Source: Archaeoglobales archaeon (lineage in GTDB: Archaea > Halobacteriota > Archaeoglobi > Archaeoglobales > Archaeoglobaceae). From it: a stretch of 10,875 bases of DNA. The notes below the pieces were generated by a model. That model was given only the letters and a program-made list of their open reading frames with translations. It did not search any database and had not been told where the DNA came from. Position numbers and translations under genes: made by a program. Where the stretch lies: NCBI GenBank assembly GCA_003662985.1, contig QMZD01000027.1, forward strand, positions 1 through 10,875, given 5' to 3'. Below are positions 2,787 to 10,633 of the stretch, one piece after another (position 1 is the stretch's first letter; each line of letters opens with the position of its first letter).

Positions 2787-3020
2787 TCAACGCGATCGCC
2801 TGTCGGGCATCGCACAATGGTCATCATAGTATAAATCAAAAGTGGAGTTGCAGTTCAAGCACAGTCCAGTCTTTCCCTTGTCGATGATTTTCCTCGACTT
2901 GCAGTAGGGACAGTGCTGCCTTCTCACCTCTTTGTAGAGCTTACCATCCTGATGCACCCATCCCTTACCGGGGATGAAGCGCAAGGGCTCCCCGCACCAC
3001 AAACACCTAGTTTGGCTCAT
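2787..3020 (-). CDS. Double zinc-ribbon protein (77 aa)
   Basis: Cysteine pairs are C6-x2-C9, C37-x2-C40 and C54-x2-C57, with H23 in a GKGWVHQDG motif and C69 near the end. C37/C40 with C54/C57 form a classic zinc ribbon (CPYC-x13-CLNC); C6/C9 with H23 could be part of a second site. The arrangement fits a small nucleic-acid-binding or protein-docking factor. The ATG at 3020 is preceded by AGGTGAGGGA, and the TGA overlaps the GAGGAGG site of the next gene. A gap of 49 bases upstream holds nothing else I can support. Confidence 0.78.
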   Translation of the reverse strand: MSQTRCLWCGEPLRFIPGKGWVHQDGKLYKEVRRQHCPYCKSRKIIDKGKTGLCLNCNSTFDLYYDDHCAMPDRRSR

Positions 3021-3814: not shown

Positions 3815-4228
3815 TTACAAGTCTCTTTCTATAAACTTGATTCCCTCGAGTATGCAGAACTTCTCAAACCTGTAGTGGCGGTAGATCTTAATCCCACTGT
3901 TGTAGTCCCTGCTTTCTATGATTGTATCATAATCCTCCATGAATTGCGGGCAGGGTTGCTGGTAGCACTCGTGGATGCTCTTCATCTTAGCCATGATGAT
4001 CTTTATCCCCTCTTTCGATGCCTGATCAACTAGGTAGGCAATAAAGGAAAGGGGCAGGACGGGGATGATATACTCTGCCCCGCACTCTTTGGCAAGGTGG
4101 ATGGCATCAGCTGCCGTGGATAGTGGCCTCTGGTATTTTACAATCTTCACTTCGCCAAATTTTCGTCTGAGGGCTGAAACCTGAGCCGGCAGGGGTTCAT
4201 GCCGGCTTAGCCAGAGAATTGTTGTCAT
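3815..4228 (-). CDS. Rossmann-like protein of unknown function (137 aa)
   Basis: The protein opens with a beta strand and loop (TTILWLSRHEPLPAQ), then a helix (VSALRRKFG), a strand (EVKIVKYQ), a helix (TAADAIHLAKECG) and strands AEYIIPVLP and IKIIMA. This alternation suggests a Rossmann-like alpha/beta fold of about 85 residues, followed by a small tail with C88 and C93. I have seen the ILWLSRHEPLPAQ opening in hypothetical proteins of mobile elements but cannot assign a family. I chose ATG 4228, one base after the TAA of the MGYTHYW gene; the upstream GGGAAAGAG is only a modest ribosome site, so coupling is likely. An in-frame start further upstream would run deep into the neighbouring gene. 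Confidence 0.7.
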   Translation of the reverse strand: MTTILWLSRHEPLPAQVSALRRKFGEVKIVKYQRPLSTAADAIHLAKECGAEYIIPVLPLSFIAYLVDQASKEGIKIIMAKMKSIHECYQQPCPQFMEDYDTIIESRDYNSGIKIYRHYRFEKFCILEGIKFIERDL

Positions 4229-4229
4229 G

Positions 4230-4883
4230 TTACTCTTTCCCGCAATACCAGTCGGGCTCGAAATCCTCACCGTAGCCAAGGACATCCTGACAAATGTGCA
4301 TAGCGTCGTACCAGTGCTGAATCTCCCCATCGCTACTGATGATTATTTTATCGCCCAGGTGGTGCTTTGCAATTATCAAAAAAGCCGTTACGGCTATGTC
4401 GTAAGGCCTGTAGGCTGTTTTACAGAACCCGAATACCTTACCAACTTTTCTGGAATCGTTGTAAACCGGTCTGCCACTTGCATCATAGTAGGCAATCTTT
4501 CCGATCACCATACCATCCTCATCAACCCTCGGGAACCAGAATGTCTCATAGCTGCAATCTCCGTCACATGTCCTTGCTTTTATCAAGTGGCCGGCAAACC
4601 ATACTCCCTCCCTCGGGTCTTTTGCTTTGGAGAGAACAACTCCACCAGCTTCTTCAGTTGGCCACGGAATTATAAGATCACGTTTTGGGTGTCCACAGAG
4701 AGCATCGCCGTTGAAAACGACAGCATCGTTTGAAATCTCAGGCTCACCCGTTCCATCTCCCCCACGGAGCTTTATTCCCATGCTTTCAATAGCCTCAGCT
4801 ACCTTTTTAAAATCCTCAACGATTGCTGAGAATGTCTTCTTCGGGATCTTCTTAGGTCTATACCAATAGTGGGTATATCCCAT
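4230..4883 (-). CDS. Conserved MGYTHYW-type phage/mobile-element protein (217 aa)
   Basis: The N-terminus MGYTHYWYRP and the motifs RTCDGDCSYETF (residues 104-115), KTAYRPYDIAVTAFLII (155-171), AKHHLGD (172-178) and SSDGE (183-187) are the conserved blocks of a family I recall from phage and archaeal-virus genomes, where it is annotated only as hypothetical. H174, H175, D184 and the C106/C110 pair could be functional residues. The length looks complete. The ATG at 4883 has GGAGGGAT upstream, and the stop lies one base before the next gene's start. No biochemical function is known to me. Its presence supports a viral or mobile origin for the region. Confidence 0.82.
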   Translation of the reverse strand: MGYTHYWYRPKKIPKKTFSAIVEDFKKVAEAIESMGIKLRGGDGTGEPEISNDAVVFNGDALCGHPKRDLIIPWPTEEAGGVVLSKAKDPREGVWFAGHLIKARTCDGDCSYETFWFPRVDEDGMVIGKIAYYDASGRPVYNDSRKVGKVFGFCKTAYRPYDIAVTAFLIIAKHHLGDKIIISSDGEIQHWYDAMHICQDVLGYGEDFEPDWYCGKE

Positions 4884-4885
4884 TT

Positions 4886-5083
4886 CTATCCCTCCAGCAG
4901 GTGTTTTACATCGAATAAGATCTGCCTGAGAATTCTGGAGTGTTTGATGAAGGTTCCACCGTGGAGAAAGCTACCCTTGCGGATTTCAATTCTGAATCTG
5001 GTTTTTGATTCGTTGAAAGTCACTTCATACCCCTTTTCTTCCAGCTTGGGGATTAATTCCTTTATCTCCTCAATTTCCCTCAT
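4886..5083 (-). CDS. Small charged protein of unknown function (65 aa)
   Basis: Not recognised. An acidic helix (REIEEIKELIPKLEEKGYE) is followed by a beta hairpin (VTFNESKTRFRIEIRKG) and a C-terminal helix (SRILRQILFDVKHLLEG), an alpha-beta-alpha pattern typical of small folded domains. No cysteines. The ATG at 5083 overlaps the upstream TGA as ATGA, and GGGAGGA lies four bases before it, so it is translationally coupled to the upstream zinc protein. Confidence 0.72.
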   Translation of the reverse strand: MREIEEIKELIPKLEEKGYEVTFNESKTRFRIEIRKGSFLHGGTFIKHSRILRQILFDVKHLLEG

Positions 5084-5343: not shown

Positions 5344-5667
5344 TCAACACTCAAAGACTTTGCGAACTCCTTCCTTCTTAATGTCTCTCTCAAGAAGGGA
5401 ATAAGCTTTCTTGATGGCTTCTTCTCTCGTCTCGGCCTCAACCACATAGGTCGCCCTAAAGTGGATGTGGTGCCTCATTGCAACCGACTCTCCCCTCAAC
5501 TCCCTTATCCTTCTAGCCTCCTCTTCAGCCTCTCTTTCCAACTCGTATTCGCTAACCCAGTACGGGCATGTCCCGCATCTTCTGAATCCACACTCCTCAG
5601 GCTCGAAATCATCATCCGTGGCCTCGTGGTAGTAATATGAATTTGGGTTCTCACAAACTCCCCTCAT
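5344..5667 (-). CDS. Cys-cluster and helix protein, possibly two domains (107 aa)
   Basis: The N-terminal third carries C5, C26, C31 and C34 (CGFRRCGTCPYW), a likely metal site. A charged helix (about 40-60) links it to a C-terminal segment (HIHFRATYVVEAETREEAIKKA) of the type xxVEAETxEEAIKKA, a common beta-alpha module of small phage proteins. An ATG at residue 64 could start a separate 44-aa protein, but the spacing from GGGGAG is long, so I keep one gene. The ATG at 5667 is preceded by GGTGA. Function unknown. Confidence 0.7.
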   Translation of the reverse strand: MRGVCENPNSYYYHEATDDDFEPEECGFRRCGTCPYWVSEYELEREAEEEARRIRELRGESVAMRHHIHFRATYVVEAETREEAIKKAYSLLERDIKKEGVRKVFEC

Positions 5668-6999: not shown

Positions 7000-7302
7000 T
7001 CACCTCCTGTACTTAGGGCATGAAAAAAGTTCGCAACCGATTGCGTAGCATATGCGAAAGTCGTCGGGTAGTAAAAAGCATCTGTCTATCGCATAACCTA
7101 TCGGGCACGGCGAATACGCTGTTGCTCCGCAAGCATCGCATTCGTTGATATCACAGTTTGCGCAGAAATTCGGAATTGCCTCAACGGCATCAACGACTTC
7201 ACTAACGAGGTCGTCGTATTTACAATCCACACAATGGTTTCTCCAGCCCTCACAATTTTGGCATCTTTCATTCAACTCAAATATCTTGTTTTTTATTTCC
7301 AT
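7000..7302 (-). CDS. Cysteine-rich protein with 13 cysteines (100 aa)
   Basis: Cysteines fall at residues 14, 17, 24, 27, 47, 50, 55, 58, 66, 75, 85, 90 and 95. Three x2 or x4 spaced pairs (C14/C17, C24/C27, C47/C50 with C55/C58) suggest two or three metal sites; the later cysteines are more irregular. The acidic helix between the first two clusters (LVSEVVDAVEAI) is the only clear secondary structure. Zinc sites or iron-sulfur clusters are both possible. The ATG at 7302 overlaps the upstream stop as TAATG with GAGGTGAT before it. Function unknown. Confidence 0.75.
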   Translation of the reverse strand: MEIKNKIFELNERCQNCEGWRNHCVDCKYDDLVSEVVDAVEAIPNFCANCDINECDACGATAYSPCPIGYAIDRCFLLPDDFRICYAIGCELFSCPKYRR

Positions 7303-7532
7303 TATATCACCTCATAGGTTTCTAAAATCTTCTCAAACTTATCCTTTTCCAAAACCCTCAACTCAGAGGGCTGGAAGCCGTAGAACTCCTCGATGGCCTT
7401 TACTCCTCCAACCCTAACGAGCAAATCTAGGTTGGAGAAGTAGTAAACCCTGAAAATCCGCGGAGCTCCCACTATCGTAAAACAAATTGGCTTTCCATTC
7501 CCTTTTTTTCCGTTAAAACCATTCCCACTCAT
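7302..7532 (-). CDS. Small protein of unknown function (76 aa)
   Basis: Gly/Asn/Lys-rich N-terminus (SGNGFNGKKGNGK), then a beta-rich region (PICFTIVGAPRIFRVYYFS, LLVRVGG) and a C-terminal helix (VLEKDKFEKILETYEVI). Not recognised. I use ATG 7532 because AGGAGGGAT lies four bases upstream; an in-frame ATG at 7583 has no comparable site and would place a leader hairpin inside the gene. A long imperfect hairpin (7401-7442) lies within the coding sequence, the lower boundary of the inverted-repeat zone. The stop overlaps the next ATG by one base. Confidence 0.72.
   Translation of the reverse strand: MSGNGFNGKKGNGKPICFTIVGAPRIFRVYYFSNLDLLVRVGGVKAIEEFYGFQPSELRVLEKDKFEKILETYEVI
7401..7442. repeat. 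Imperfect inverted repeat inside a gene
   Basis: The perfect core is CTCCAACC (7406-7413) with GGTTGGAG (7430-7437), 8 bp. It is extended outward across one mismatch by TACT (7401-7404) with AGTA (7439-7442), and inward past a bulged C by two pairs. In total about 14 pairs lie inside the 7302-7532 coding sequence. Confidence 0.75.
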
Positions 7533-7556
7533 TTTATCCCTCCTGGGGCAGACAAC

Positions 7557-7578
7557 TCGCTTAAGTCCCATTAAGCGA
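7557..7578. repeat. 8-bp inverted repeat in a gene leader
   Basis: TCGCTTAA (7557-7564) and TTAAGCGA (7571-7578) flank a six-base spacer, about 12 bases upstream of the SD of the 7302-7532 gene. It could be a hairpin in the leader RNA or a dyad operator for a DNA-binding protein. Confidence 0.7.
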
Positions 7579-7600
7579 ACCATCCGCCCTATCAGGGGGT

Positions 7601-7624
7601 AAAAATTAATAGTTTTTAATTTTT
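7601..7624. terminator. AT-rich hairpin after the 45-aa gene, possible terminator
   Basis: AAAAATTAA (7601-7609) and TTAATTTTT (7616-7624) form a perfect 9-bp stem with a six-base loop. On the minus strand it starts at the stop codon of the 7624-7761 gene and ends in TTTTT, so it may terminate or pause that transcript. Archaeal termination mainly needs a T-run, so the call is tentative. Confidence 0.4.
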
Positions 7625-7761
7625 CAAGAAAATCCTAGATTATATAGTTCTGACAGTAAGATGTCTCTCTTACTGTCGTCCAACGACCTGCAATATGTGC
7701 ACAGCAGGTCGTATAAATTTTGTGTTATTTTTATTTTACATTTTTTACATATTTTATCCAA
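7624..7761 (-). CDS. Overlooked small zinc-knuckle protein (45 aa)
   Basis: A TTG start at 7761-7759 follows a perfect AGGAGGTGA (7775-7767) by five bases. The frame stays open for 45 codons to TGA at 7626-7624. The peptide contains C5-x2-C8 and C21-x2-C24 (KICKKCKI, LLCTYCRS), the same two-knuckle layout as many neighbours, then a helical tail (DDSKRDILLSELYNLGFS). Knuckles, SD and operon position together make a real gene likely, although a TTG start and short length make it easy to miss. Two perfect hairpins (7652-7677 and 7683-7712) lie wholly inside it. Without experimental support a non-coding structured RNA is the alternative. Confidence 0.62.
   Translation of the reverse strand: MDKICKKCKIKITQNLYDLLCTYCRSLDDSKRDILLSELYNLGFS
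7652..7677. repeat. Perfect 10-bp hairpin in the 45-aa gene
   Basis: GACAGTAAGA pairs exactly with TCTTACTGTC around a six-base loop (7662-7667). It lies only five bases from the next hairpin. Confidence 0.88.
7683..7712. repeat. Perfect 9-bp hairpin with a palindromic loop
   Basis: ACGACCTGC (7683-7691) and GCAGGTCGT (7704-7712) enclose a 12-base loop whose last eight bases, TGTGCACA (7696-7703), are themselves a perfect palindrome. Confidence 0.88.
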
Positions 7762-7766
7762 TTTTT

Positions 7767-7775
7767 TCACCTCCT
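7767..7775 (-). promoter_or_regulatory. Perfect SD site formed by the end of a gene
   Basis: AGGAGGTGA encodes the last two arginines and the TGA stop of the 7767-8291 protein. It is also a full match to the archaeal anti-SD, five bases before a TTG. A site this good with no annotated gene behind it is what points to the 45-aa protein. Confidence 0.75.
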
Positions 7776-8291
7776 CAATTTAGGTACAACTATTTTGACC
7801 TTGACCTTATAGCAATCTTTATTCCAGTAGTGCTCTACTATTTCATATTCCCCAATACCGGGGAATATGATCTTAAAGTACGGTGATGAGGCGTTGAGAT
7901 CCCCGCTCATAACTGGTAAGGGGATTATTTTAACCCCTTTTGAGGGGATAACACTGATTTTGTGTGCTCTGCTATTGACCCGTTTCACGAAGAAAACGGG
8001 TTTTTTGCGGAGTACAATAGTTTTACCATTAAGGTCTCGCATATCTTTGATGCTCTCTATGAACGCATAGAACTCTTTGAATTTCTTGTAGAGTTTCTGT
8101 GTGTAATCGTCTGCCTTGTGTTTTATGTAGTGTTCATCCTCCCAGTATACCACATCGTTGACAACGTGGTATACTTTTTTGTTGGATTCGGGTTCGTTTT
8201 CCTTCTTAACCCTGAATATAACATACTCAGGGTTTAACCACTCTATGTCGCACCAAAACCAAGTGTTTTGGTGCTTAATTTTATACTGCAT
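7767..8291 (-). CDS. Unknown protein encoded by hairpin-dense sequence (174 aa)
   Basis: Not recognised. The protein is basic and beta-rich, with aromatic clusters (TWFWCDIEWL, YVIFRVKK, VYHVVNDVVYW, KPVFFVKRV, YFKIIFPGIGEYEI), a lysine-rich central helix (YTQKLYKKFKEFYAF) and a basic end (VKVKIVVPKLRR). It has no cysteine knuckles, unlike most neighbours. Several peptide segments that read as beta strand-turn-strand are encoded exactly by the perfect DNA hairpins at 7843-7870, 7978-8001, 8144-8175, 8208-8234 and 8250-8274. The ATG at 8291 has AGGTGGTGA upstream. A nucleic-acid-binding role is possible from charge, but unproven. Confidence 0.75.
   Translation of the reverse strand: MQYKIKHQNTWFWCDIEWLNPEYVIFRVKKENEPESNKKVYHVVNDVVYWEDEHYIKHKADDYTQKLYKKFKEFYAFIESIKDMRDLNGKTIVLRKKPVFFVKRVNSRAHKISVIPSKGVKIIPLPVMSGDLNASSPYFKIIFPGIGEYEIVEHYWNKDCYKVKVKIVVPKLRR
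7843..7870. repeat. Perfect 11-bp hairpin, longest in the window
   Basis: TCATATTCCCC pairs with GGGGAATATGA around a six-base loop (7854-7859). On the minus strand it encodes an IIFPGIGEYE segment of the 174-aa protein. Confidence 0.9.
8144..8175. repeat. Perfect 10-bp hairpin with an alternative inner stem
   Basis: AGTATACCAC pairs with GTGGTATACT across a 12-base loop. Within the loop CGTT (8156-8159) can pair with AACG (8163-8166), which competes for one base of the outer stem. It encodes VYHVVNDVVY. Confidence 0.88.
8208..8234. repeat. 8-bp hairpin extended by an inner stem
   Basis: AACCCTGA pairs with TCAGGGTT. One mismatch inward, TAT (8217-8219) pairs with ATA (8223-8225) around a three-base loop, giving 11 pairs with a single mismatch. 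Confidence 0.85.
8250..8274. repeat. Perfect 10-bp hairpin near a gene start
   Basis: GCACCAAAAC pairs with GTTTTGGTGC around a five-base loop. It lies about six to fourteen codons after the start of the 174-aa protein and encodes HQNTWFWC, where an mRNA stem could slow early translation. Confidence 0.88.
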
Positions 8292-8316
8292 TTTTCACCA
8301 CCTGAAATACCGCCCT

Positions 8317-8553
8317 TTAAAAATCCGCTGGATTGTCACTCCATCGAAAAGTCACTGTTAGCGACTGCTCATCCCAGTCCGTGAAGTCCCAATATTGGGA
8401 TAACACGGACGTATCATAGCCATTTTGCTGTAAAATCTCCTCTGCAAGCTCCTCTTTCCTTTCCACATCCCCAGCCTTGAGGCTGAGGATTTGTTTAAGT
8501 TGGCTGGGTGTAACAGCCAGCTCATAGCTTATATTTTTCTCCATCTTTATCAT
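8317..8553 (-). CDS. Small acidic protein of unknown function (78 aa)
   Basis: Not recognised. The N-terminal half is helical (TPSQLKQILSLKAGDVERKEELAEEILQQNG in pieces), the C-terminal half aromatic and beta-like (SVLSQYWDFTDWDEQSLTVTFRWSD). No cysteines. The ATG at 8553 has GGGGG six bases upstream, just after the stop of the 225-aa gene. Nested inverted repeats at 8322-8334, 8377-8410, 8467-8490 and 8501-8519 cover much of the coding sequence, so it shares the hairpin-rich character of the two genes downstream. Confidence 0.72.
   Translation of the reverse strand: MIKMEKNISYELAVTPSQLKQILSLKAGDVERKEELAEEILQQNGYDTSVLSQYWDFTDWDEQSLTVTFRWSDNPADF
8377..8410. repeat. Nested inverted repeat around a 14-base palindrome
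   Basis: GTCCGTG (8377-8383) pairs with CACGGAC (8404-8410). Separated by three unpaired bases on each side sits TCCCAATATTGGGA (8387-8400), a perfect palindrome. The result is a symmetric two-stem hairpin inside the 8317-8553 gene. Confidence 0.88.
8467..8490. repeat. Nested inverted repeat, 5 bp plus 4 bp
   Basis: CAGCC (8472-8476) and GGCTG (8481-8485) enclose TTGA. One mismatch outward, ATCC (8467-8470) pairs with GGAT (8487-8490). It lies next to another stem, TGGCTG/CAGCCA, at 8501-8519. Confidence 0.8.
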
Positions 8554-8564
8554 AATAATCCCCC

Positions 8565-9242
8565 TTATACCAATGCATGAGCCTTCAAAATAGCATACAA
8601 CTTATCATCTGTCTCATCAAAATCATTTTTTCCAGTTATTGCCGTAAGAATAAACCTCTTAGTATCTCTATACTTCTCCTTCAGCTCTAGCACCCTGAAA
8701 TAAAGTTTCATTAGCTCAACAACACTTTCAAAATCCTCTTTTTTAACAAGAATATCGAACCCAGTCGAAAATACATTGCTCGTCGTTCCAAAAACAATCG
8801 CAAAGTCGATTTTTGCCTCCCACAAGATTTTCTTGAGGTTTTCATAGAACCTTCCAAGATACTCTGCATCTTTCGAGCCGTGAAGAATTGCATCTTCATG
8901 TATTTTTACCCATTCACCCGCTACAGGCTCATAGTATCCTCTCCAGGGATCTGTAGACACCCATTTAAACTGTATTGGGCTATTTTCCTCCATCAAAATA
9001 TCAAAATTAAGATCGTCGTACTCGTCTAGGCTAGATATGCTCTGAGAAAGGTGTACGTCTTCGACTGAGTAAATAATAAATTTGTCAACAGTACCTTCCT
9101 TTGGGTAAAAAACAATCACAGTTCCTTGGGGGTAGTCCTTTTCTGCATCAAAGCAATATTCGCAAAGTGTGGCATCTAATTTATCTGAATATAGCTCATG
9201 TCCTTCTTTAATCTCCTCTCCACAAATCTTACATTTTACCAT
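8565..9242 (-). CDS. Zinc-finger protein with a DPWRGYY domain (225 aa)
   Basis: The N-terminus holds one zinc finger (C4-x2-C7, C27-x2-C30). Residues 90-110 read IQFKWVSTDPWRGYYEPVAGE in pieces, followed by a helical region (ILHGSKDAEYLGRFYENLKKIL) and an alpha/beta segment (IDFAIVFGTTSNVFSTGFDILVKKEDF). The WVSTDPWRGYYE block looks conserved and I recall similar segments in hypothetical proteins of archaea and phages, but can give no function. The ATG at 9242 has GAGGTGG five bases upstream. It is the longest unknown protein here. Base composition is more AT-rich than the genes near PCNA, and I see no dense hairpins in it. Confidence 0.78.
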   Translation of the reverse strand: MVKCKICGEEIKEGHELYSDKLDATLCEYCFDAEKDYPQGTVIVFYPKEGTVDKFIIYSVEDVHLSQSISSLDEYDDLNFDILMEENSPIQFKWVSTDPWRGYYEPVAGEWVKIHEDAILHGSKDAEYLGRFYENLKKILWEAKIDFAIVFGTTSNVFSTGFDILVKKEDFESVVELMKLYFRVLELKEKYRDTKRFILTAITGKNDFDETDDKLYAILKAHALV

Positions 9243-9259: not shown

Positions 9260-9376
9260 TCACTTTATATACCAATTAATTATTATCTCTCCTCTCTCAT
9301 CTATTGTAGCAGTCCTGAGGAGGTCTCTTTTTCCAGTTTTAGTTTCTAAAACTCCTTTCCCTACAACAACTTCCAT
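9260..9376 (-). CDS. Overlooked 38-aa protein of unknown function
   Basis: An ATG at 9376-9374 follows AAGGTGAT (9388-9381) by four bases. The frame runs 38 codons to TGA at 9262-9260, followed shortly by the SD of the next gene. The peptide (MEVVVGKGVLETKTGKRDLL, then RTATIDERGEIIINWYIK) alternates beta residues and looks like a small beta sheet. Its SD overlaps the TAA of the 115-aa gene upstream, so it fits the operon grammar exactly. An in-frame ATG at 9382 overlaps the SD and is less likely. Function unknown. Confidence 0.72.
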   Translation of the reverse strand: MEVVVGKGVLETKTGKRDLLRTATIDERGEIIINWYIK

Positions 9377-9380
9377 ATGC

Positions 9381-9388
9381 ATCACCTT
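9381..9388 (-). promoter_or_regulatory. SD site of the 38-aa gene
   Basis: AAGGTGAT on the minus strand overlaps the TAA stop (9390-9388) of the 115-aa gene and sits four bases before ATG 9376. Confidence 0.65.
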
Positions 9389-9735
9389 TAAATCTCCTCT
9401 GCACCGCCGAAAATTACAGGAGCTCCGTCGAGGTAGCCCAGAATCTCTCCGGGCTTGATTACTGCCTCTTCTAGTAGTTTAACAAACTCCTCTGGGAAAA
9501 CTGCCTCTTTTGCACCTAAAACCGGGCTCAGGTGTGGGAAATAGCTCCCCTTGGTGTTGTAAACTCCCTTCCGAGTTGCGGGATCTACCTTTAGGATTAT
9601 TCTAGAGCCCTGAGCGATCAGGTTGCCCTTGTCGGTCTTCATTACAAGAAGGGAATCCGGTTTTCTCATTCTTCCAAGCTTAACAACCACACGCCCACTT
9701 CGGGCTTCTAAAACCTTAACTTTCAATTCCTCCAT
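9388..9735 (-). CDS. Beta-rich protein of unknown function (115 aa)
   Basis: Not recognised. Basic beta-rich N-terminus (ELKVKVLEARSGRVVVKLGR), then SLLVMKTDKGN and RIILKVDPATRKG; the C-terminal half carries a helix (PEEFVKLLEEAVI) and an LGYLDGAPVIFGG ending. No cysteines, so it stands apart from the zinc proteins. The ATG at 9735 has GGGGAGGGATT upstream. A 92-base gap with a GC-rich hairpin lies before the gene, making it a candidate for separate transcription or leader control. Confidence 0.75.
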   Translation of the reverse strand: MEELKVKVLEARSGRVVVKLGRMRKPDSLLVMKTDKGNLIAQGSRIILKVDPATRKGVYNTKGSYFPHLSPVLGAKEAVFPEEFVKLLEEAVIKPGEILGYLDGAPVIFGGAEEI

Positions 9736-9951: not shown

Positions 9952-9996
9952 CCCTCCACCGGCTTAAAAAAGGAGGGTGGGGGATTTGCACCCCCA
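9952..9996 (-). promoter_or_regulatory. Leader 1: T-arm-like hairpin, anti-SD, T-run, SD
   Basis: On the minus strand, in order: a stem of TGGGGG and CCCCCA (9996-9991 with 9983-9978) with a seven-base loop TGCAAAT; then CCCTCC (9977-9972); then TTTTTT (9971-9966) and AAGCC; then the SD GGAGGGG (9957-9951) of the 38-aa gene. CCCTCC can pair with GGAGGG over a 14-base loop and would hide the SD. The same order recurs at 10550-10597. It could be a terminator, a translational switch, or both. Confidence 0.55.
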
Positions 9997-10549: not shown

Positions 10550-10633
10550 CCTCCATTAGCTTAAAAAAATAGGAGGCCCCGGGATTCGAACCCGGGGAAT
10601 GTTCTTGCTCCGTGGCAATGAGGCCCCACGGAG
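10550..10633 (-). promoter_or_regulatory. Leader 2: two hairpins, anti-SD, T-run, SD
   Basis: On the minus strand: CTCCGTGG (10633-10626) pairs with CCACGGAG (10615-10608), 8 bp. Then CCCCGGG and CCCGGGG (10597-10591 with 10583-10577) form 7 bp around TTCGAAT, a canonical tRNA T-loop sequence. Then CCTCC (10576-10572), a T-run (TTTTTTT, 10569-10563), AAGC, and the SD GGAGG (10554-10550). CCTCC can pair with the SD or with GGAG of the upper stem, giving alternative folds. Order and spacing match leader 1. Confidence 0.6.

Follow-up and report, generated by a model that had tools for sequence, protein, structure and literature searches.

A sharply bounded cluster of short coding palindromes in a putative virus-like element of an archaeon

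Perfect inverted repeats have been described in several protein-coding genes of the mitochondria of Nematomorpha, with arms of up to 284 bp (PMC6649704). The mitochondrial genomes of four species carry many such repeats, which have undergone multiple gains and losses and, when long, are depleted of phase 3. Template switching is discussed by the authors as a possible mechanism, and insertions that overlap the repeat regions are reported for a few cases (PMC6649704). One template-switch event can also yield perfect RNA stems (PMC8794818), and template switching yields multi-residue replacements in yeast genes (PMC8604942). Here we describe a zone of short palindromes in contig C27 (10,875 bp; the whole contig is termed the window), which comes from an archaeal genome bin of 383 contigs that is 80.7% complete and which appears to form part of a virus-like element. 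The zone covers four genes in the order D-C-B-A, plus a gap, on the minus strand, which carries all the window genes discussed. The short coding palindromes in it form a cluster that is real, extreme and sharply bounded.

The coding palindromes of Nematomorpha are the closest described case found and may be regarded as a relative in kind, so the view of the initial annotation, made from the sequence alone, that no described system matches was too strong (PMC6649704). In both cases perfect inverted repeats lie inside protein-coding genes beyond chance expectation. The arms of the zone differ in being 8–11 bp long, or 19 bp at most with G-U pairs counted, and the cluster is confined to 1.2 kb within the window whereas the nematomorph repeats are genome-wide. 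In contrast to the phase-3 depletion of the latter, four of the ten coding hairpins examined (perfect and imperfect) are in phase 3, with five in phase 2 and one in phase 1. As to whether conserved parts of a functional protein are encoded by both arms, one mark of the Nematomorpha type, gene A is the one gene with homologues: the first arm of its hairpin is conserved and the second lies mostly in an insertion. The zone also resembles template-switch mutation between quasi-palindrome arms, in which one event can place a perfect inverted copy beside its source and replace several neighbouring residues (PMC8794818; PMC8604942; PMC3820800). Those papers treat separate events in many genes and reconstruct the ancestor, whereas the zone holds ten perfect stems in 1.2 kb and a single hairpin, that of gene A, can be followed through distant homologues.

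A dispersed palindromic repeat family had been discounted in the initial annotation, and is rejected here, as the arms are unlike from hairpin to hairpin and share no consensus. Rickettsia palindromic elements sit in frame inside genes. Such dispersed repeats, which include REP sequences and MITEs, are short palindromes as in the zone, but share a family sequence (PMC3733652; PMC10969869). Searches of the literature, for the most part outside subscription papers, listed no comparable cluster in an archaeal virus or plasmid.

Perfect stems were defined by arms of at least 8 bp and loops of 3–30 nt. The window contains 17, of which 10 lie within 7406–8274 and 7 are scattered across the remaining 9.7 kb; with loops of 3–16 nt, 10 of the 14 fall in the zone. 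This is exactly the number of perfect repeats, with arms of 8–11 bp, that had been annotated, and the expectation of about 0.2 by chance given with them is matched by the 0.20 perfect stems per 1.1 kb that follow from local composition. The statement that most hairpins lie inside the four small genes holds in part. Eight of the ten perfect stems are within reading frames (one in A, two in B and five in C), while two are intergenic (7557–7578 and 7601–7624) and gene D contains imperfect stems only. The zone is spanned from 8522 down to 7401 by the imperfect stems of D together with the perfect stems of C, B and A (Table 1).

Table 1. Genes, hairpins and associated features of the palindrome zone (arms and loops are those of the perfect stems)
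Feature	Positions	Strand	Arm (bp)	Loop (nt)	Location	Description
Gene A	7302–7532	minus				76 aa; ATG start 7532–7530; codon score 0.166
Gene B	7624–7761	minus				45 aa from TTG 7761 (48 aa from GTG 7770); codon score -0.108
Gene C	7767–8291	minus				174 aa; codon score 0.129
Gene D	8317–8544	minus				75 aa (78 aa from ATG 8553); codon score 0.056
Hairpin 1	7401–7442		8	16	gene A	perfect core 7406–7413/7430–7437; 13 bp with one G-U on minus strand
VRVGG-coding 15-nt stretch	7404–7418	minus			gene A	absent from five gene A homologues
Shine-Dalgarno-like AGGAGG of gene A	7539–7544	minus
Hairpin 2	7546–7589		8	6	between genes B and A	perfect core 7557–7564/7571–7578; unbroken 19-bp helix on minus strand counting five G-U, which are A-C mismatches on plus strand
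Hairpin 3	7601–7624		9	6	intergenic	arms A+T only
Hairpin 4	7652–7677		10	6	gene B
Hairpin 5	7683–7712		9	12	gene B
Hairpin 6	7843–7870		11	6	gene C
Hairpin 7	7978–8001		8	8	gene C	imperfect extension to 7963–8016 better on plus strand
Hairpin 8	8144–8175		10	12	gene C	14 bp with two G-U on minus strand
Hairpin 9	8208–8234		8	11	gene C	12 bp with one G-U on minus strand
Hairpin 10	8250–8274		10	5	gene C, near start
Imperfect hairpin	8377–8410				gene D	7 bp, 3x3 internal loop, 5 bp
Imperfect hairpin	8464–8493				gene D	8467–8490: 10 bp with one G-U on minus strand
Imperfect hairpin	8498–8522				gene D	wobble is G-U on plus strand

Codon-preserving shuffles, which the initial annotation had proposed as a check, leave the excess intact. 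The codons of the four genes were permuted synonymously with the gaps held fixed, so that the two intergenic stems are included in every count. Shuffling within genes gives a mean of 3.04 stems and a maximum of 6, and shuffling pooled over the four genes a mean of 2.86 and a maximum of 7; none of 2000 shuffles reaches the observed ten in either scheme. When each of the 29 open reading frames of the window is shuffled separately (200 times, stems of at least 8 bp), 7302–7583, 7624–7770 and 7767–8291 beat every shuffle. Among the other 26, single stems occur in 3815–4330 and 9260–9385 and are equalled by 3 and 10 of the 200 shuffles respectively. Perfect stems of at least 7 bp are absent from the flanking genes, 8565–9242 and 7000–7302. 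Of 144 segments of 150 nt, 12 have a minus-strand z-score of predicted folding below -3, eight of them with starts at 7351–8251. With 20 shuffles for each of four settings on both strands, z is -6.7 to -13.4 for the zone and +0.7 to -2.6 for control stretches upstream and downstream.

Chance and base composition are therefore rejected, by the composition expectation and by the per-gene and four-gene synonymous shuffles. A common genome background is likewise rejected, 855,200 bases in 80 contigs of the bin containing 235 stems with a maximum of 5 per 1.1 kb. In one bin contig (L012), three of the five stems in the densest 1.1 kb are A+T-rich and close together, unlike those of the window, and the first 20 kb of contig C1, the probable neighbour of the window (see below), has at most 2 stems per 1.1 kb. 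Nor are such clusters common in archaeal viruses: the best 1.1 kb by P holds 3 stems in HHTV-1, fewer than 3 in AFV1 and 5 in SIRV2 (whole genomes), and 7 in STSV1 and 4 in ATV (first 50 kb). Among 148 loci (1,693,340 bases, some overlapping, window included) the zone is the strongest outlier, with P 2.2e-14. The next two are the Sulfolobus virus STSV1, which has seven perfect stems in the 1.1 kb from position 4901 (P 5.5e-8), and the viral contig IMGVR_UViG_3300030090_004814, which has six with unlike arms in the 1.1 kb at 3951–5050 (P 8.0e-8). Four of the latter six lie between open reading frames of at least 50 aa; this contig was reached via window gene 4230–4883.

In our estimate there is about an even chance that the coding palindromes of the zone were produced by repeated fold-back (template-switch) copying. 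During replication or repair a nascent strand would fold back repeatedly and copy a neighbouring stretch as its reverse complement, so that one arm of each hairpin would be an inverted copy of the other; outcomes without stop codons would be retained. What is seen directly is the excess of perfect, unrelated stems, its sharp confinement to D-C-B-A and, in gene A, a hairpin arm of which most falls within a lineage-specific insertion. Homologues of gene A occur at five loci of three related genomes, with 36–37% identity for three of them and 28 and 32% for the other two. This set omits two matches inside 775-aa frames (E 1.3e-4 and 3.2e-4) that were unreported on re-scoring, a 30-residue piece at a contig end (genome G029) and locus L141 (E 0.008). 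In the six-row alignment, five extra residues, VRVGG, stand between the conserved NLxL and VK in the window sequence only. The 15 nt that encode them contain 10 of the 13 nt of arm 7401–7413, and the partner arm, 7430–7442, encodes the conserved YF-x-NL, in which F, N and L do not vary. An 8-nt inverted match to the insert lies within the 45 nt upstream, as is the case for only 17 of 2012 control 15-mers; such a match is found at 2 of 57 positions in gene A, the insert among them. No stem of at least 7 bp (loops 3–20) occurs in any of the five homologues. A comparison of homologues had been proposed in the initial annotation, and for gene A, the gene so compared, the stem is not conserved. The insert fits what fold-back copying would leave, with the proviso that homologues this distant also permit another placement of the gap.

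In gene C the palindromes are carried by the order of the amino acids itself. Its five stems of at least 7 bp compare with a mean of 1.41 under synonymous permutation and of 0.38 when the amino-acid order is randomized, with none of 100 random orders reaching 1.41. Because the stems partly survive synonymous permutation but not randomization of the amino-acid order, the palindromes have shaped the protein. Together with the gene A insertion, these amino-acid-level palindromes give strand-switch replication the most support among the explanations first offered. In addition, the arms pair perfectly by Watson-Crick rules, and sense and antisense strands alike carry a large excess of structure (whole-zone z -13.1 minus and -12.6 plus; 37 °C, span 150, 20 shuffles). 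We infer that the nine other hairpins arose in the same way as that of gene A and that the D-C-B-A stretch is a hot spot, perhaps one that is heavily transcribed or single-stranded. If so, it would represent a natural hot spot of short template switches piling up inside genes, and would allow one to ask what triggers such switches and how much protein novelty results.

Several observations weigh against this copying. One of the ten hairpins is traceable, against homologues that are just 28–37% identical, and VRVGG sits in a variable loop where an alternative gap placement is possible. The effect of amino-acid order on stems is seen in gene C alone and is lacking in genes A, B and D. A mutational hot spot edged at gene borders is odd. 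Finally, the contiguous extension of the stems by G-U pairs leans to the sense strand, a bias not expected from copying by itself.

This last observation bears on the main rival, which is that the structure of the sense (minus-strand) mRNA has been selected as a heat-stable chain of hairpins controlling translation or shielding the transcript. This is possible, if on the unlikely side. Contiguous G-U extension lengthens the 10 perfect cores by 27 bp in all on the minus strand, against a null mean of 4.6 (0 of 5000), and by 2 bp on the plus strand, against a null of 4.5. When ten stems are drawn from the 235 of the bin, 19 of 100,000 draws reach 27 bp; with the best stem omitted, 784 of 100,000 reach the remaining extension. 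The five G-U pairs in the helix of hairpin 2 would be A-C mismatches on the opposite strand, and at 70 °C the predicted fold has a stem at the base of this hairpin in which five of the six bases of the gene A Shine-Dalgarno sequence pair with 7593–7599. The G-U run stays partly open in the same fold, and the basal stem is missing from the 80 °C fold. Even at 75 °C the predicted folding energy of the zone, -80.9 kcal/mol, is far lower than the -19.2 kcal/mol of the null (span 60).

A census of mismatches does not confirm the lean to the sense strand. Treated neutrally with respect to strand, it counts 8 mismatches of sense type, 5 of antisense type and 8 of other kinds (P 0.58). Sense-type wobbles exceed their composition share in two of nine settings (P 0.012 and 0.014) and show no such excess at 0.05 in the other seven, and there is no preference for sense over antisense in any of the nine (P 0.25 or more). 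The folding energies do not confirm it either. The whole-zone z-scores given above are similar on both strands, and genes B, C and D fold below all 60 synonymous shuffles on either strand, gene C more strongly in antisense (z -5.0) than in sense (-3.9). Gene A by itself gives no significant result, with 5 of 60 shuffles as low in sense and 3 of 60 in antisense. A non-coding RNA of a known family is rejected, as Rfam gives no match to 7301–8600 at E-values up to 1 or to the whole window at gathering scores. The structured mRNA of the initial annotation is possible, the G-U extension being in its favour and the census and the energies lacking a clear preference; the structure is accordingly not claimed to act in RNA. 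If this reading is true, a DNA element would here encode a densely packed series of mRNA hairpins that are predicted to withstand high temperature. Copying and RNA selection stand for two general ideas on how perfect hairpins arise and persist.

It is unlikely that the hairpins are instead needed at the level of DNA, in a stretch that becomes single-stranded or cruciform at some stage, such as an origin, a packaging site or a transfer region. The excess of structure on both strands would agree with such an element, as would the presence of stems in genes and gap alike. GC and AT skew are unchanged at the zone, the arms share no repeated motif or common loop, and the hairpins are mostly within reading frames. 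A replication origin recognizable by skew is rejected, since the zone shows no sign of one; the replication region proposed in the initial annotation gets no support from skew and is an unlikely reading.

Two further ideas concern the protein encoded by gene C. The first extends fold-back copying, and we consider it a decidedly improbable conjecture: inverted copying in a mobile element would make new protein parts, the DNA of a β-strand folding back to write its partner strand, so that palindromes become β-hairpins and the orphan gene C would largely have been assembled in this way. The second reverses the causality, in that the strands of β-hairpins in gene C would be written in mutually complementary codons and the palindromes would follow from the design of the protein. 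It accords with the dependence of the gene C stems on amino-acid order. In a single-sequence AlphaFold2 model, the five gene C hairpin centres are separated by a mean of 2.2 residues (range 0.5 to 5.2) from the centres of predicted strand-turn-strand units, which is matched by 399 of 20,000 circular shifts, or 774 of 20,000 for residues 1–80 only. This proximity to β-turns is suggestive; the model is weak, with a mean pLDDT (predicted local distance difference test score) of 55, with confidence just for approximately residues 1–80 (block means 65–88) and values under 50 for residues 81–174. A protein-led origin is nevertheless most improbable, as synonymous permutation lowers the gene C stems from 5 to 1.4 and the intergenic stems would require a separate cause.

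The four genes differ in how clearly they are coding. The codon scores of A and C match those of other window genes. Gene D scores weakly (0.079 for an alternative frame), and the score of gene B is non-coding-like, leaving its coding status uncertain; its product has two CxxC pairs. Searches of 5.8 billion proteins, which require shared 5-residue words so that distant relatives may escape, as the homologues of gene A did, give only self-matches for gene C, on two contigs (longest 59,920 bp), and for gene D. Further searches give four weak matches for C (E 0.016–0.27) and three for D (E 0.047–0.083). The protein cluster of gene A has two member sequences. No relative was detected of gene A in the viral-contig and genome-contig scans, of gene C, the PCNA or the 225-aa gene in the viral-contig scans, or of gene 976–1365 in the genome-contig scan, although records near the window's own were possibly excluded from these scans.

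The window would belong to a virus-like archaeal element, either extrachromosomal or integrated, of about 60 kb or more. The size is suggested by the presence of genes C and D on the 59,920-bp contig as well, and the archaeal assignment by gene 1607–2332, which encodes a sliding clamp (PCNA) that matches the PRK01115 subfamily of NCBIfam (E 4.9e-19) below the cut-off of that model. This PCNA weakly resembles those of the haloviruses CGphi46 and HHTV-1 and shares 30% identity with another stretch of the bin (L065). The end of contig C1 (25,184 bp; L126 6062–6184) repeats bases 1–123 of the window exactly, and through this 123-bp overlap C1 is probably the neighbour of the window in the same element. 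Contig C1 encodes a HerA-like ATPase (also like a PHROGs terminase family), a subtilase, a DNA methylase and a glycosyltransferase. Gene 4230–4883 matches 21 viral loci, one of which has a short weak match to one further window gene.

Relatives of window genes 976–1365, 2787–3020 or 5344–5667 are found within a few kb of PCNA in related genomes (L143, G065:C236; L144, G005:C1; L146, G019:C16), and a small contig (L114, G065:C263) carries a relative of gene 9388–9735. These places may be either sister elements or chromosomal genes near PCNA; no relatives of genes C and D were detected in the genomes that bear them. At L006 160–1156 (G003:C14), two adjacent frames, the first related to window gene 8565–9242 and the second similar by eye, adjoin a Cdc6-like ATPase (by eye), and the locus looks like an integrated element.

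Outside the zone, minus-strand sequence at 10561–10599, and by eye at 9979–9995, resembles the 3′ end of a tRNA (T-arm and acceptor end, by eye). For 10561–10599, ARAGORN reports no tRNA by default and one doubtful intron-bearing candidate under relaxed settings, and every Rfam match is under the gathering score. This stretch shares 18 identical nt with a site in contig L057 of the same bin and is 78–90% alike at about a dozen listed sites in related genomes (E 0.004–0.12). It may represent an integration site or a tRNA-like leader. A 454-aa frame at L012 2274–3638, integrase-like by eye, contains a stretch, VGFEPTRAEPNGLAGHR, that reads like the translation of a tRNA end and gives the impression of an attachment site within the gene.

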